The translations under genes were made by a program, and so were the position numbers. The notes beneath the pieces are model-generated. The model searched no databases. It saw only the letters and a list, made by a program, of their open reading frames with translations, and was not told the origin of the DNA. A DNA stretch of 64,000 bases, from assembly GCA_020160915.1 (NCBI GenBank), contig JAIUPK010000004.1, positions 372,001-436,000 on the forward strand, given 5' to 3'. This DNA comes from Actinomycetota bacterium (GTDB taxonomy: Bacteria; Actinomycetota; Actinomycetes; Actinomycetales; Microbacteriaceae). Positions 6,961-13,039 of the stretch are shown here, piece after piece. The stretch's first letter is position 1, and each line of letters opens with the position of its first letter.

Positions 6961-9039
6961 TCAGACGTCGATGCGGTCGCGGTCGAGCCCGTGGCCGGCG
7001 ATGATGAACTCCTTGCGGGGCGCGACATCGTTGCCCATGAGCAGCTCGAACACCTTCGCCGCCATCTCCGCGTCGCCGACGTTGACCCGCCTGAGGGTGC
7101 GGTGAGCGCGGTCCATCGTCGTCGTGGCGAGCTGGTCGGCATCCATCTCACCGAGACCCTTGTAGCGCTGGATCGGGTCCTGATACTTCTTGCCGCTCTT
7201 CTTGAGCCCAGCCAGCACGGCGTTCAACTCGGCTTCCGAGTACGTGTAGATCGTCTCGTTCGGCTTCGAACCCGGATTGAGAACGACCACCCGGTGCAGC
7301 GGCGGCACCGCGGCGTAGACCCGGCCATCCCGGATCATCTCGGGCATGTACCGGAAGAACAGCGTCAGCAGCAGCGTGCGGATGTGCGCGCCGTCGACAT
7401 CGGCGTCGGCCATGATGATGACCTTGCCGTACCGGGCGGACTCCAGATCGAAGCTACGACCCGACCCGGCGCCGATGACCTGAATGATCGACGCGCACTC
7501 GGCGTTGGAGAGCATGTCGCTGACCGAGGCCTTCTGCACGTTGAGGATCTTGCCGCGAATCGGCAGCAACGCCTGGTACTCACTGTCGCGCCCGAGCTTG
7601 GCGGTACCGAGGGCGGAGTCACCCTCGACGATGAAGAGCTCGCTGTTGGCGACGTCGTTCGAGCGGCAGTCCACGAGCTTCGCCGGCAGCGAGGAACTCT
7701 CCAGCGCGTTCTTGCGCCGCTGGGTCTCCTTGTGGGCGCGCGCCGAGATGCGTGACTTCATCTCCGACACGATCTTGTCGAGCACGAGGGCACTCTGCGC
7801 CTTGTCGTCGCGCTTGGACGACGCGTACTTCTCCGCCAGCTGCTTCGCGATGACGGATGACACGATCGAGCGCACAGCGGGCGTGCCGAGTATCTCCTTG
7901 GTCTGGCCTTCGAACTGGGGTTCTGGCAGCCGTACCGTGAGCACCGCGGTCAGCCCGGCCAGCACGTCGTCCTTCTCCAGCTTGTCGGATCCCACCTTGA
8001 GTCGGCGCGCATTCTTCTCGACCTCGGCACGGAGGAACTTGAGCATCCCCTGCTCGAAACCGGCCTGATGCGTTCCGCCCTTCGGGGTGGCGATGATGTT
8101 CACGAAGCTCTTGAACACGGTGTCGTACCCGGTGCCCCACCGCAGTGCCACGTCGACCTGGCACTCGCGGGTGAGCTCGGTCGGGGTCATGTGCCCGTTG
8201 TCCTGAAGCACCGGCACGGTTTCGGTGAAGGTGCCGGACCCGAGCATGCGCCAGGTGTCGGTGATCGGCGCATCCGGAGCCAGGTGATCGACGAACTCGC
8301 CGATGCCGCCCTCGAAGTGGAAGGTCTCGCGTCGCGGCTCGGGCCCGCGCGAGTCGGTGAGGTCGAGAGTCAGCGATGGCACGAGGAAGGCCGTCTGGCG
8401 CAGGCGATCCAGGAGCTCATCGGTCTGGAACGTCGCCCCCTTGGTGAAGATCTGGCGGTCGGCCCAGTACCGGATGCGCGTGCCGGTGACGCCCTTGGCG
8501 ACCTTGCCGACGACCCGCAGCTCGCTGCCGGACACGAACGGCGTGAACGTGGCGTCGGGCGTGGGCTCGCCGGAGTCGGCGAAGATGCCGGGCTCACCGC
8601 GGTGGAACGACATCGCCCAGGTCTTGCCGTCGCGGTCGACCTCGACGTCGAGCCGCTCCGAGAGCGCATTGACCACCGAAGCGCCGACGCCGTGCAGTCC
8701 ACCGGATGCCGCGTACGATCCGCCGCCGAACTTGCCGCCGGCGTGGAGCTTGGTGAACACGACCTCGACGCCCGAGAGACCCGTCTTGGGCTCGATGTCG
8801 ACGGGGATGCCGCGGGCGGTATCGCGCACCTCGACGCTCTCGTCGGGGTGCAGGATCACCGCGATCTCGGTACCGTGACCGCCCAGCGCCTCGTCGACAG
8901 AGTTGTCGATGATCTCCCAGAGGCAATGCATGAGGCCACGGGAGTCGGTGGAACCGATGTACATACCGGGACGCTTGCGAACTGCCTCGAGCCCCTCGAG
9001 CACGGACAGATGACGGGCCGAGTAGTCAGCGCTCGACAT
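6961..9039 (-). CDS. parE: DNA topoisomerase IV subunit B
   Basis: A 692-residue ATPase subunit of topoisomerase IV, partner of ParC. The GHKL ATPase domain has LEAVRKRPGMYIGST, DNSVDEAL with its catalytic Glu, and LHGVGASVVNALS. The transducer domain follows. The TOPRIM domain has EGDSALGTAKLGRD and DADVDGAHI, both intact, then PIRGKILNV and the C-terminal QRYKGLGEM. Start is ATG 9039 (MSSADYSARHLSVL) because AAGGAG lies 8 bases upstream. The longer upstream frame has no family similarity. It ends 29 bases before the esterase start and is divergent from the DUF7455 gene. Confidence 0.93.
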   Translation of the reverse strand: MSSADYSARHLSVLEGLEAVRKRPGMYIGSTDSRGLMHCLWEIIDNSVDEALGGHGTEIAVILHPDESVEVRDTARGIPVDIEPKTGLSGVEVVFTKLHAGGKFGGGSYAASGGLHGVGASVVNALSERLDVEVDRDGKTWAMSFHRGEPGIFADSGEPTPDATFTPFVSGSELRVVGKVAKGVTGTRIRYWADRQIFTKGATFQTDELLDRLRQTAFLVPSLTLDLTDSRGPEPRRETFHFEGGIGEFVDHLAPDAPITDTWRMLGSGTFTETVPVLQDNGHMTPTELTRECQVDVALRWGTGYDTVFKSFVNIIATPKGGTHQAGFEQGMLKFLRAEVEKNARRLKVGSDKLEKDDVLAGLTAVLTVRLPEPQFEGQTKEILGTPAVRSIVSSVIAKQLAEKYASSKRDDKAQSALVLDKIVSEMKSRISARAHKETQRRKNALESSSLPAKLVDCRSNDVANSELFIVEGDSALGTAKLGRDSEYQALLPIRGKILNVQKASVSDMLSNAECASIIQVIGAGSGRSFDLESARYGKVIIMADADVDGAHIRTLLLTLFFRYMPEMIRDGRVYAAVPPLHRVVVLNPGSKPNETIYTYSEAELNAVLAGLKKSGKKYQDPIQRYKGLGEMDADQLATTTMDRAHRTLRRVNVGDAEMAAKVFELLMGNDVAPRKEFIIAGHGLDRDRIDV

Positions 9040-9214
9040 AGATGGATCTCCTTGGGTCGTCTTCAAGACTAGGGTCCTCGAGGCCACCGACCCTGTTGCC
9101 ACACCACCGCTGTACGCGTTCAGCGAAATACCCGGCAAATGTCGCACCGCTGTAACAACCGCGTGCTTGTATTGAGTCACGGGAACTTCACCCGCCAGCC
9201 GTAAGGAGCAGGAC

Positions 9215-9445
9215 ATGTCTCAGATCGCCACCGAGAACACCGCCGTCGACGAACTGGACTACTCCCTCTCCGCGCTCGACCGTTGCGACAGCTGCGGAGC
9301 GCAGGCCTATATTCGAGTCACCCTCGCCAGCGGCGACCTTCTCTTCTGCGCGCACCACGGCGCCAAGTTCAAGGAGAAGCTGTTCCCGACCGCGCTCAAC
9401 TGGCACGACGAGTCGGCGCGCCTGCTGGAGTCCGTCGCCGACTAG
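9215..9445 (+). CDS. DUF7455 small zinc-finger-like protein
   Basis: A 76-residue protein with ALDRCDSCGAQAYIRV, then DLLFCAHHGAKFKEKL, the pattern of the actinobacterial DUF7455 family. CxxC plus CxHH may bind one zinc ion. TAAGGAG lies 8 bases before ATG 9215. Its role is unknown. It is commonly found divergent from the topoisomerase IV B subunit gene in actinobacteria, as here, with a 175-base intergenic region. Confidence 0.85.
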   Translation: MSQIATENTAVDELDYSLSALDRCDSCGAQAYIRVTLASGDLLFCAHHGAKFKEKLFPTALNWHDESARLLESVAD

Positions 9446-9463: not shown

Positions 9464-10192
9464 TTACTCGGCGGCGAGACCGAGCCGCACGGCGATCTGG
9501 TTTCGCGCTGCTTGGGCTGAGGCATCCACTCGTTCAGCTGTGGCGTTGTTCGCTTCGTAGCGACCATCCGTGATGAGGCCCAGCAGATAGTCCGCCAGGC
9601 CGGGATTCTTGGCGAGCACCGGGCCGTGCAGGTGGGTTCCGATGCTGGTGCCGACAACCTCACCCTCAAGTCGGGGCTCGGCGGCGAGTGAGTTGCCGAC
9701 GCCGTAGACAACGGTGCCGAGCGCCCGCGCACCGGCGACAGCGCGGTACTCCCGGGCGTGGTTCTCGAATCCGATGAGGCGGCCGAAGTCGCTGTCGACG
9801 ACGAGATCATCGCTGACCCGCGCCCGAGCCACGGAATGCCCTGAGAAGATTCCCAGCCCTTCGAGGGCGTCACCGCTCGACAGCTCGACTGACTCGGACA
9901 GAAGCTCCCACCCGGTTCCCACGGCGAGCAGCGGGATGCCGTCGGCACTCCATGCGCGCAGGCTCCCCTCCAGCGCACGAAGGCCCTCCAGTACCCGTGG
10001 CGCGCTCGACTCGGCACCGGACCCCACGATCACCGCCTGCGGCGCCTCGCCCTCGAGTGAGTCGCCGAGCGCGAGGTTGTGCACTCGAGCGTCCCAGCCC
10101 GCCCAGCGGGCACGCTGAGCCAGAACGAGCGCGTTCTGCGCGTCGCCGTTGAGGTCTAGGAGTTCGGGGAAAACCGACAGGATCGTGATCAC
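9464..10192 (-). CDS. GatD-like class I glutamine amidotransferase lacking the catalytic cysteine
   Basis: A 242-residue homologue of GatD, the glutaminase subunit of the MurT/GatD enzyme that normally amidates D-glutamate of lipid II. The fold markers are present: FPELLDLNGD at the N-terminus, VIVGSGAE near residue 55, and THLHGPVLAKNP with His189 near 190. The nucleophile elbow, normally VCGGYQLLG with Cys94 in Staphylococcus aureus, here reads LAVGTGWELL. Gly92, codon GGA at 9917-9919, sits in the Cys position, so glutamine hydrolysis by the known mechanism is not expected. The GTG start lies one base after the murT-like stop, so the two are co-translated. See the findings for possible consequences in peptidoglycan synthesis. 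Confidence 0.8.
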   Translation of the reverse strand: MITILSVFPELLDLNGDAQNALVLAQRARWAGWDARVHNLALGDSLEGEAPQAVIVGSGAESSAPRVLEGLRALEGSLRAWSADGIPLLAVGTGWELLSESVELSSGDALEGLGIFSGHSVARARVSDDLVVDSDFGRLIGFENHAREYRAVAGARALGTVVYGVGNSLAAEPRLEGEVVGTSIGTHLHGPVLAKNPGLADYLLGLITDGRYEANNATAERVDASAQAARNQIAVRLGLAAE

Positions 10193-10193
10193 A

Positions 10194-11438
10194 TCACGCC
10201 AATCCGAGGTGGGTTCGCGTGCGGCGCATCGAGTCCGCGCTGAAGATCACCGTCTTGATTCCGTGCTTCGGCGCCGGCAGCGCGAAGAAGGTGTCGATCG
10301 CGGTCGCCAGGTCCGGCTCCAGTGCACCCACCGCAACGCCCTGGTACTCCAGCTGCAGGGCGAGCTCGTGAGCCTTGGATCCGGTCACCACGGTGACGGG
10401 CGGCATTGCGGAGAGGTCGACCGGCCAGAAGTACGACGGGTCGCGCACGTCCGATCCGATCGCCATCAGCACCTGATCGAGCTCCGGGTCGAGCTCATCC
10501 ACATTCAGTTGGAAGCTGGCGGGGTTCTGCACGAGAACGAACTCGACGGGCATTCCCCTGACCCTGGTGACCTCGCCCCTGGCGAAGACCGGTTCGAGGG
10601 TCGAGATCGCATCGACAGCGATCGTGGCGTCGAAGTCCGGTCCGAGCACCTCGCTCGCTCCGCAGACGGCGGCGGCGGCATCCACCGCATAGTGGATGCC
10701 CCTGGCCGGCAGTTCCACGGTCATGCTCACGCCATCCCAGTCGAGCGTTGCCGCGCGACCGTGGACGGCCGTGACCTCCACCGTTGCGCGCGGCCGACTC
10801 TGCACCTGCCGGGCATACCCGAGACCCCGCGGGGCGGCAGCGAGCACGTCAGGGGCTGCCCCGAATCCCACCGCCGCAGCCGCCAGTCGGTCCACCAACT
10901 CCGCCAGCAGCGCGTCGTCAGCGTTGTAGACGACAGTTCCGGTCGCCCGCTCGGCGATCCGCTCGAGGAGCTCAGCCACCTGCTCGGACTCGAAGAAGCG
11001 ATCGATCTGATCGGTCATGACATTGGTCAGGATCACCGTGTGCGGATCGAGGTCGCGGGCGACCAGCGCGCCGTGTCCCTCGTCCATCTCCAGCACGGCC
11101 ATGCGGTCGCTCAGGCGGCCCGTGACCGAGGCCTTCTCCAGCAGAGCCGATGTGAGGCCCTGGCTGATGTTCGCGGTCGAGGGGTTCGTGAAGACAGTCC
11201 GCCCGTGCGCGCGCAGAATCGCCACGATCATCTTCGTCGTCGTCGATTTACCGCTCGACCCACTGACGATCACCAGTCCGTCGGGGAACGAGTTCAGCGC
11301 GTGCGGGAGAAGACCGGGCGCGATCCTGTTGACCACCAGGCCGGGAATTGCCGAGCCACCATCGCGCTTACGCAGACGTGCAATGAAGCGTACGGCGCGT
11401 CCGACCAGAATCGCCGGCACGTAGCGCGTCGACGCCAT
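10194..11438 (-). CDS. MurT-like Mur ligase family protein without the zinc ribbon
   Basis: A 414-residue protein of the Mur ligase fold, homologous to MurT, the ATP-using subunit that activates the alpha-carboxyl of D-Glu in lipid II. The P-loop is GSSGKSTTT near residue 60 (usual form GTNGKTTT). LTNVMTDQIDRF and VYNADD follow as in MurT, and the C-terminal MurT domain starts near VQNPASF. MurT normally carries a four-cysteine zinc ribbon after the YNADD segment. Here that region (about residues 175-215) has no cysteine. The usual SWIWD-like motif is SYFWPVD. ATG 11438 overlaps the sigA stop as TAATG. Confidence 0.8.
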   Translation of the reverse strand: MASTRYVPAILVGRAVRFIARLRKRDGGSAIPGLVVNRIAPGLLPHALNSFPDGLVIVSGSSGKSTTTKMIVAILRAHGRTVFTNPSTANISQGLTSALLEKASVTGRLSDRMAVLEMDEGHGALVARDLDPHTVILTNVMTDQIDRFFESEQVAELLERIAERATGTVVYNADDALLAELVDRLAAAAVGFGAAPDVLAAAPRGLGYARQVQSRPRATVEVTAVHGRAATLDWDGVSMTVELPARGIHYAVDAAAAVCGASEVLGPDFDATIAVDAISTLEPVFARGEVTRVRGMPVEFVLVQNPASFQLNVDELDPELDQVLMAIGSDVRDPSYFWPVDLSAMPPVTVVTGSKAHELALQLEYQGVAVGALEPDLATAIDTFFALPAPKHGIKTVIFSADSMRRTRTHLGLA

Positions 11439-12853
11439 TACTCGAGGTAGTCGCGCAGGGACTGCGAGCGTGACGGATGACGCAACTTGGCCATCGTCTT
11501 CGACTCGATCTGGCGGATGCGCTCCCGCGTCACGCCGAACGTGTCACCGATCTGGTCGAGAGTCTTGGGCATTCCGTCGCCGAGACCGAAGCGCATCCGG
11601 ATGACGCCCGCCTCACGCTCCGACAGGGAGTCGAGGAGGCTCTCCAGCTGCTTCTGCAGCATGGTGAAACCGACGGCATCCGCCGGAACCACGGCCTCGG
11701 TGTCCTCGATGAGGTCGCCGAACTCGCTGTCGCCGTCCTCGCCGAGCGGTGTGTGCAGGGAGATCGGCTCGCGGCCGTACTTCTGCACCTCGATGACCTT
11801 CTCCGGAGTCATGTCGAGCTCGCGGCTCAACTCCTCGGGGGTGGGTTCGCGGCCGAGGTCCTGAAGCATCTGGCGCTGCACGCGCGCAAGCTTGTTGATG
11901 ACCTCGACCATGTGCACGGGGATGCGGATGGTGCGGGCCTGGTCGGCCATGGCGCGGGTGATGGCCTGACGGATCCACCACGTTGCGTAGGTGGAGAACT
12001 TGAAGCCCTTGGTGTAGTCGAACTTCTCGACAGCACGGATGAGACCGAGGTTGCCCTCCTGGATCAGGTCAAGGAACTGCATGCCGCGGCCGGTGTAGCG
12101 CTTCGCAAGCGAGACGACGAGGCGCAGGTTGGCGCCGAGCAGGTGGCTCTTCGCCCGCTGCCCGTCCTTGGCGACCCAGAGCAGTTCGCGTCCGAGTTGC
12201 GACTTCTGCTCGGCCGCTGACATGTGCGAGAGCTTGTCCTCGGCAAAGAGGCCCGCCTCGATGCGCATGGCGAGCTCGACCTCCTCGGCAGCATTGAGCA
12301 GTGCGACCTTGCCGATCTGCTTCAGGTAGTCCTTGACGGGGTCTGCCGTAGCGCCGGTGATCGCCGACGAATAGACAGGGACCTCGTCCTCGTCGTCGAC
12401 CAGCGACAGCACCAGGGCGCCGGTCGGCAGTTCCTCGTCCTTGCCCGTCGACTTCTCGTCGTCGTCATCGTCGTCGTCCTTGGCGTCATCCGAGTCCGCG
12501 TCGACATCTACCTCGACTTCGACCACGGCGACAACGACATCGATCTCCTCGGGGTCGATCGCGTCGTCGTCAACATCGATCTCCACGACCTCATCGACGT
12601 CGTCATTGCCGTCTTCGGGGTCTGCGGGGGCCGTTGCCTTCGAGCCACGCTTGGTCGCCGGAGCCTTCACTGGGGCGGCCGATGCCCCCGCGGCCTTCGC
12701 CGCCTTCGTGGCAGCGGCCTTCTCAGCGCGGGTGAGCTCGGGTGCGTCGACGGCGGTGGACGCCTTCGCGGCGGAAGCCTTCGTGGGTGCGGCCTTCGCC
12801 GCAGTGGCCTTGACGCTCGCAGCTGCGGCGGGGGCCTTGGTTCGGGTTGCCAT
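11438..12853 (-). CDS. sigA: Principal RNA polymerase sigma factor (RpoD/SigA)
   Basis: A 471-residue group 1 sigma-70 factor that directs RNA polymerase to housekeeping promoters. The first ~160 residues are a Lys/Ala-rich then strongly acidic low-complexity stretch, typical of actinobacterial SigA. Region 1.2 has [11 protein letters not shown], region 2 has [22 protein letters not shown] and [13 protein letters not shown], and region 4.2 has [20 protein letters not shown]. It ends SQSLRDYLE. Start ATG 12853 (MATRTKAP) has GAAAGG about 10 bases upstream. The stop codon overlaps the next gene, so downstream cell-wall genes are probably translated from the same message. Confidence 0.95.
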
Positions 12854-13039
12854 GTTTCGAATGCCTTTCGATCGGGCAGCACTGTTTTTGGGCAGTACTA
12901 AGACCCATGTCAAGTCGTGATTCGTTGCGCTCGACGAGCTTGAACATCCAGGGATGCCACGAATCCCGAAACTAGACCGGGTCTCGAATCAATTATTGCA
13001 CGGTTTGATTGGACCAACCGCCAGAGTCCGGGAGGGCCT

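Follow-up and report, generated by a model that had tools for sequence, protein, structure and literature searches.

The closest described relatives of the genes analyzed here are the MurT/GatD pairs of Staphylococcus aureus, Streptococcus pneumoniae and Mycobacterium tuberculosis, two-gene operons that join a Mur ligase middle domain to a GATase_3 partner. In group B cell walls, a textbook class since 1972, the cross-link leaves from the alpha-carboxyl of D-glutamate (D-Glu); our search of the literature found no enzyme named for the group B bridge, and we know of no ligase for this step as a functional class. Here we describe a murT/gatD-like pair without the glutaminase cysteine in a 64,000-nucleotide (nt) stretch of DNA (the window) from a member of the Microbacteriaceae (Actinomycetota; assembly GCA_020160915.1, contig JAIUPK010000004.1, positions 372,001-436,000 of the forward strand). 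Comparison across the family and its order leads us to consider it likely that, in group B peptidoglycan, this pair and the ligases with which it appears interchangeable couple the alpha-carboxyl of D-Glu to an amine, which is probably the diamino acid of the bridge.

The likeness to the described pairs extends beyond operon and domains to the ATP- and Mg-binding residues, to the Asp corresponding to S. aureus MurT Asp349 and, in the window member, to His189 of GatD. The window GatD aligns with S. aureus GatD (5n9m, 6gs2) over residues 3-207 at E values of 8e-22 to 9e-22, and the matches of the window MurT to its counterparts in S. pneumoniae and S. aureus reach 1e-20 to 1e-18. Unlike those enzymes, however, the window pair has no glutaminase Cys, carries a P-loop reading GSSGKS, has replaced the DNAAD motif (named in PMC6113224), and lies far below the NCBIfam equivalog cut-offs for both halves, GatD scoring 97.4 against 450 and 69 against 400, and MurT 80.8 and 79.9 against 800. 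The two genes and their diagnostic residues are placed as follows:

10194 to 11438, minus strand: murT-like Mur ligase of 414 amino acids, the catalytic half of the pair (Mur_ligase_M, 56.1 bits; MurT in PDB, 1e-20)
9464 to 10192, minus strand: gatD-like protein of 242 amino acids without the catalytic Cys, the proposed scaffold or amine-docking half (GATase_3, 46.6 bits; S. aureus GatD, 8e-22)
9917 to 9919, minus strand: codon of GatD Gly92, at the position of S. aureus Cys94 (by alignment; codon place computed from the frame)
9626 to 9628, minus strand: codon of GatD His189, kept (by alignment)
11244 to 11261, minus strand: MurT P-loop, residues 60-65, reading GSSGKS (both Thr positions carry Ser, fixed at 0.97 in the clade described below)
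11079 to 11090, minus strand: MurT E117, D119 and E120, Mg and acceptor-carboxylate residues, kept (by alignment; invariant or nearly invariant columns)
10440 to 10442, minus strand: MurT D333, equivalent to S. aureus D349, the third triad residue, kept (by alignment)

An earlier note, made from the letters of this DNA, had claimed that Gly92 stands where S. aureus GatD has Cys94; the alignment bears this out, and the coordinates and frames it gave were also right. Its further claim that the His189 region and the rest of the GatD fold are kept agrees with the match over residues 3-207, in which His189 is present under the same number as in S. aureus and the Arg at S. aureus position 128 is retained. 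We sampled 149 genomes of the Microbacteriaceae, among which the window GatD as query found matches in 114 and a 66-row GatD profile in 131; ten of the profile matches were weak only (best E 9e-4 to 1.4e-7, the stretches among those listed lying in long other frames) and were counted as without GatD, which leaves 121, seven above the single query. The 126 MurT/GatD pairs read from the family (110 + 16) fall into four classes: 98 Cys-less pairs of a single clade, found in 96 genomes and across 55 genera; 11 pairs of a distant Cys-less clade, most with THN at the site and with one or two CxxC in MurT; 14 Cys-bearing pairs that lack a zinc ribbon, of which three accompany a Cys-less pair; and 3 Cys-bearing pairs with the ribbon.

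FastTree, run on 186 concatenated pairs after both catalytic columns had been taken out, recovers exactly the 98 as one clade (0.98), all Microbacteriaceae and sister to Cys-bearing pairs of the order, and in an IQ-TREE analysis of 67 chosen rows the 36 clade representatives group at 100/100. The sequence sets leave out 30 repeat loci (L112-L141) and 41 Erysipelothrix-side loci, and one locus (L228) gave a MurT and no GatD. At the Cys94-equivalent site, Cys is found in 0 of the 98 clade members (Gly in 71, Ala in 17, Asn in 4, Ser in 4, Thr in 2), so Gly92 in the window is not a matter of chance. In other families of the order, where 77 genomes have the MurT_C domain, 30 of 30 pairs read keep both Cys and His. 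The Cys-less pair is retained in genomes of 0.93 Mb (G013, Cys to Ser), 1.43 Mb and 1.76 Mb (G027). These distributions indicate that the ammonia-making half has been lost permanently across a clade of the window's family.

The MurT residues with roles in ATP, Mg and acceptor-carboxylate binding, as given in PMC6113224 and PMC6085368 (S. aureus E108; S. pneumoniae D112/E113), are kept: K64, S65, E117, D119 and E120 of the window protein match K59, T60, E108 and the D/E pair, with Ser in place of T60, and Asp333 corresponds to S. aureus Asp349, described in PMC6113224 as the third triad residue. Because these residues and the triad Asp persist, carboxylate activation looks intact, and of the triad the ammonia-making nucleophile alone is gone. 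Thirty-eight MurT columns, including K64, E117, D119, E120 and D333, are at least 95% fixed in both the clade and the Cys-bearing group, and six others show a different residue in the clade, fixed there at 96% or more (T62S, T66S, R94Q, T155V, N254D and G309S, in a numbering one above that of P0002). In the GatD of the clade, 25 formerly fixed columns now fall below 60% and 12 are kept; His189 is absent in 32 of the 98. The newly fixed MurT residues together with the 38 kept columns indicate a shift, not decay, and the earlier note's view that the pair changed function is supported by these columns, by the intact ATP and carboxylate sites, by the single clade and by retention in small genomes.

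The altered P-loop and SWIWD-like motif that the note had described are likewise present, as GSSGKS for GTNGKT and as RDPSYFWPVD at the place of S. aureus RDTSWIYDAD. Its observation that MurT lacks the four-cysteine ribbon is correct, since CxxC is absent from the window MurT, but the argument drawn from it is not: the ribbon occurs only in a subset of MurTs according to PMC6113224, 29 of 30 Cys-bearing pairs from other families of the order have no CxxC (the other has a single one), and all 14 Cys-bearing non-zinc pairs of the Microbacteriaceae have none. We therefore do not read the absent ribbon as evidence of a new function, as most Cys-bearing relatives in the order share this absence.

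The Cys-less pairs also share a location. Directly behind sigA lie 93 of the 98 clade pairs, against 0 of 17 Cys-bearing family pairs. The distant Cys-less clade has 11 members in the family, and this slot houses 9 of them (the ninth, in G112, was seen only in a longer stretch). Beyond the slot lies parE, on either strand, in 17 of 17 slots read at length, a non-random set chosen mostly since parE was missing from the first stretch. Among the family genomes without the window clade and outside the eight distant-clade slot genomes, sigA was located in 45, and the stretch behind it was fetched in 40 (G005, G117, G138 and G144 were left out, and G112 was read separately). Twenty of these 40 slots hold an open reading frame (ORF) resembling CofE; 15 are empty, with sigA next to parE, and in 11 of the 15 a Cys-bearing MurT/GatD is found elsewhere. 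The remainder comprise two slots with putative transporter genes (L297 and L298), one with a racemase pair only (L266), one with a MurT fragment and one that is cut off.

CofE enzymes (F420-0:gamma-glutamyl ligase, PF01996) join an amino acid to a carboxyl, as in glutamylation of the F420 cofactor. The one slot protein tested matched PF01996 at 45 bits (cut-off 25) and reached 31 bits against the 181-bit cut-off for true CofE. As far as the tested families show, CofE and MurT are not homologous; because CofE relatives take this slot, the two probably perform the same kind of reaction, carboxylate-amine ligation. Strong CofE-like matches (378-423 bits) occur in 21 of the 149 family genomes, and GatD is found in 0 of these 21, six of which had a discounted weak GatD match; the CofE-like slots read gave no match to MurT or GatD queries, MurT alone not having been searched for across the whole family sample. 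Both states occur within genera g1 (the window's own), g7, g9, g54, g55 (where the pair is of the distant clade), g71 and g77, which implies seven or more changes of occupant if the genera are monophyletic. In a sample of 248 genomes of the order, strong CofE-like matches are confined to the window's family (8 of 20 of its genomes), and genera g74 and g78 also show both kinds, their CofE-like genomes having been searched with MurT_C only. Two unrelated ligases that share one slot and exclude each other are expected if both do the same step.

Genes beside the slot ligases include ATP-grasp genes in 18 of the 20 CofE-like slots (the one tested matches PF14397, 'sugar-transfer associated') and alanine-racemase-like genes in 11 of the 20 (6 kb read); of the 17 MurT/GatD slots followed over a longer stretch, 13 also contain a racemase pair. 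A diaminobutyrate (DAB) transaminase accompanies the CofE-like gene in two slots: that of L290 exceeds the cut-off of the EctB equivalog, and that of L271 was recognised by similarity. MurJ, above its own cut-off, is present in at least one slot (L270).

The exclusion recurs in a second phylum, in Erysipelothrix (Bacillota), a group B genus. The wall of E. rhusiopathiae is reported as B1delta, D-Glu-Gly-L-Lys (PMC4062643), with alanine instead of lysine at stem position 3 (PMC9637936). We compared five Erysipelothrix genomes chosen by 16S pattern. E. inopinata, E. urinaevulpis, E. anatis and E. aquatica gave no match to the GatD profile or to the MurT of Erysipelothrix sp. HDW6A, and all four have a CofE-like protein at 371-387 bits; of these four, the three compared are 60-68% identical to three sequences from the window's family. 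HDW6A, in which no CofE-like match was found, has a MurT/GatD in which Gly replaces Cys and Thr replaces His; an ATP-grasp gene comes next. Across 98 genomes of the Erysipelothrix order, MurT_C (37 genomes) and CofE-like matches above 140 bits (14 genomes) never occur together (hypergeometric 7e-4, uncorrected; 19-bit CofE-like matches in two MurT_C genomes were disregarded). In this order 29 of 29 GatDs read keep Cys and His, and 7 of the 37 MurT_C matches gave no locus, leaving their Cys unread. We considered and rejected Erysipelothrix as an independent Cys loss within the window clade, given the distant-clade pair of HDW6A and the CofE-like proteins of the other four. The PF14397 ATP-grasp domain is common to HDW6A (L199:2189-3217, plus strand) and to a slot where it stands beside a family CofE-like gene (L267:911-1957, minus strand); it may add a further bridge residue.

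We propose that the pair would use ATP to form amides on peptidoglycan precursors and would have lost the ability to supply itself with ammonia. MurT would still activate the alpha-carboxyl of the stem D-Glu, the pseudo-GatD would remain structurally indispensable to it, and the activated carboxyl would be attacked by an amine from outside rather than by glutamine-derived ammonia. Most likely this amine would be the diamino acid with which the interpeptide bridge of group B begins. Related genomes would rely for this step on the distant Cys-less MurT/GatD clade or on the CofE-like ligase, encoded in the same sigA-parE slot. Group B chemistry calls for the same carboxyl to be activated and for an amino acid to be accepted. 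In the S. aureus experiments reported in PMC3266927, the C94G pair lost glutamine-dependent amidation and kept NH3-dependent amidation of lipid II at pH 8.5 in vitro, while MurT alone was inactive and GatD C94G was still required as partner; a Cys-to-Gly GatD can thus be a working scaffold for a ligase fed with free amine. Attachment of an amino acid to D-Glu in group B walls has strong but indirect support, because the pair swaps with the CofE-like gene at one locus and because the exclusion is seen in Erysipelothrix without a shared locus. We infer the substrate, the nucleophile (a diamino acid rather than glycine), the product, the acting step (lipid II or a uridine diphosphate (UDP) precursor) and the role of the ATP-grasp protein.

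Measured wall types offer two points of comparison. Rhodoluna lacicola, of the Microbacteriaceae, is reported to have type B2beta with D-Ala-D-Dab (PMC4156110), and the putative R. lacicola genome in our sample (G009, L150) has Ala at the GatD Cys site and its pair between sigA and parE; this genome and Erysipelothrix both fit a distribution following group B, and they are the two cases available. The earlier note had proposed asking whether Cys loss tracks group B peptidoglycan; a simple rule of this kind is not supported, as the Cys-less pair is one of at least three alternative ligases and 14 family genomes have a Cys-bearing pair alone. With 53 of the 149 family genomes lacking the window clade, we replaced that rule by one of 'Cys-less pair or CofE-like'.

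Several observations weigh against bridge ligation by interchangeable enzymes. The Fisher test of the exclusion (p 2.8e-14, set against the 107 genomes in which one or other Cys-less clade is represented) ignores relatedness, and divergent CofE-like proteins stand beside a Cys-less pair in G112 (152 bits), G049 (149 bits) and G134 (130 bits). Neither a Cys-less pair nor a strong CofE-like match is found in 21 of the 149 family genomes, in 14 of these a Cys-bearing pair alone was found and in 6 no pair, and the slot of the last (G035), at the end of a contig, contains a fragment of MurT. Five of the 98 clade pairs (L020, L022, L055, L084 and L089, the last two being second copies) have no sigA in the stretch read. 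Only one sampled clade genome is tied to a measured wall type. In Erysipelothrix, the HDW6A pair belongs by FastTree to the distant clade, and the CofE-like genes have no cassette within 1.5 kb. The racemase genes are not taken as proof of a D-amino acid supply, because they may be housekeeping alanine racemases; the one alanine-racemase-like protein tested scored 155 bits against a cut-off of 168.

A rival reading is that the pair still amidates D-Glu, with free ammonia, GatD serving as scaffold and ordinary isoglutamine being the product. We think this unlikely: it leaves unexplained why a CofE relative, of a kind that joins an amino acid, should replace the pair, and why the exclusion repeats in Erysipelothrix, and the alpha-carboxyl is where the bridge is attached in walls of group B. 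The clade does keep the same MurT ATP and carboxylate residues, and the S. aureus C94G enzyme carries out just this reaction at pH 8.5 in vitro, but in the same report it was inactive with NH3 at pH 7.5 (PMC3266927). It is comparably improbable that the substrate of the slot ligases is not peptidoglycan but some other envelope polymer or a small molecule. The Pfam description of the slot ATP-grasp genes would suit such a role, as would the glutamylation of a cofactor by CofE-family enzymes; set against these are MurJ in at least one slot and DAB transaminase in two, the homology of MurT to a lipid II enzyme, and the fact that the sole trait known to us as common to the family and Erysipelothrix is group B peptidoglycan.

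Decay, in which the pair would be a dead remnant disappearing along with amidation, is very unlikely. Conservation of GatD fell, and the clade is missing from more than a third of the family genomes, as the counts above show. Yet the frames of the window pair are open, the MurT ATP residues are fixed across all 98 sequences, new residues have become fixed, and the clade persists in dozens of genera and in the 0.93 and 1.76 Mb genomes; further, the slots without the clade hold another ligase more often than none (9 distant MurT/GatD and 20 CofE-like against 15 empty). Ligation of a bridge amine to D-Glu by interchangeable slot enzymes remains the reading we prefer.

In the window itself, the slot has the following borders and one further ORF:

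11438 to 12913, minus strand: principal sigma factor, left slot border, which we take to be sigA/rpoD (homologues placed by similarity only)
6961 to 9216, minus strand: topoisomerase subunit, right slot border, presumably parE/gyrB-like
9215 to 9445, plus strand: small ORF of 76 amino acids with CxxC and CxxHH, between gatD and parE (ORF reading)

The murT start overlaps the sigA stop (TAATG), and the murT stop and gatD start lie 1 base apart, so that sigA, murT and gatD look translationally coupled. The window genome is 99.75% complete, and the genome search returned a single MurT_C match (PF08353; 26.5 bits there and 23.1 bits on the window protein, with a curated cut-off of 25) and a single GatD match; a second intact murT/gatD elsewhere in this genome, which the earlier note had named as something that would refute its reading, was not found.

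Other slots and copies depart from this arrangement. G111 (L003/L084) and G145 (L024/L089) each have an additional Cys-less pair outside the slot, so duplication has occurred within the clade. In G112, a single slot (L339, 387-8756, reverse complement) contains sigA, a divergent CofE-like gene, MurT, pseudo-GatD, a racemase pair and parE. In genus g46, putative amino-acid ABC transporter genes replace the ligase (L297:67-1693 and L298:200-2619, slot orientation). The 15 empty sigA-parE slots are L272, L276, L279, L280, L284, L285, L287, L289, L292-L296, L299 and L300; for these genomes amidated D-Glu is predicted, perhaps in walls not of group B.

Elsewhere in the order, weaker CofE-like domains (155-201 bits) occur in frames of 809-1016 amino acids in 21 genomes of three other families, with MurT_C in 0 of the 21. 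One was read per family, and each is an AsnB domain with a C-terminal CofE-like fusion (L320:1862-4543, L321:2240-4984 and L322:2391-5060, all minus strand); similarity search found the CofE part in 3 of 3, while Pfam scored it below cut-off in two and gave none for L321. In L320 the AsnB domain begins MSGIS instead of the usual MCGIA, and its glutaminase Cys seems also to be lost. AsnB is known for amidation of diaminopimelate (DAP); the AsnB/LtsA amidotransferases resemble the present system in this fusion, found in three genomes of other families, and differ in fold. One possible idea is that the AsnB-CofE-like fusion is a ligase for glycine or glycine amide on D-Glu.

A broader scheme, plausible in outline and offered tentatively, would have group B bridges begun by three swapped ligases: MurT/pseudo-GatD, the second Cys-less clade, and a CofE-like enzyme shared with Erysipelothrix. 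The sigA-parE slot would then be a cassette for wall chemistry, with the bridge amino acid determined by its occupant, a canonical MurT/GatD with an empty slot would mark an amidated wall of another type, and the AsnB-CofE fusions would be glycine or glycine amide ligases.

Pseudoenzymes among the class I glutamine amidotransferases likewise keep the fold and lose the nucleophile; here, unlike there, a whole clade is affected, the synthase partner is kept and the reaction is apparently redirected to another amine. The pair would also be an example from nature of a glutaminase subunit that has outlived its nucleophile, one that separates the scaffold role of GatD from its catalytic role. For the Microbacteriaceae, two unrelated ligase families that swap at one locus and exclude each other in a second phylum provide specific candidate genes for the group B bridge.

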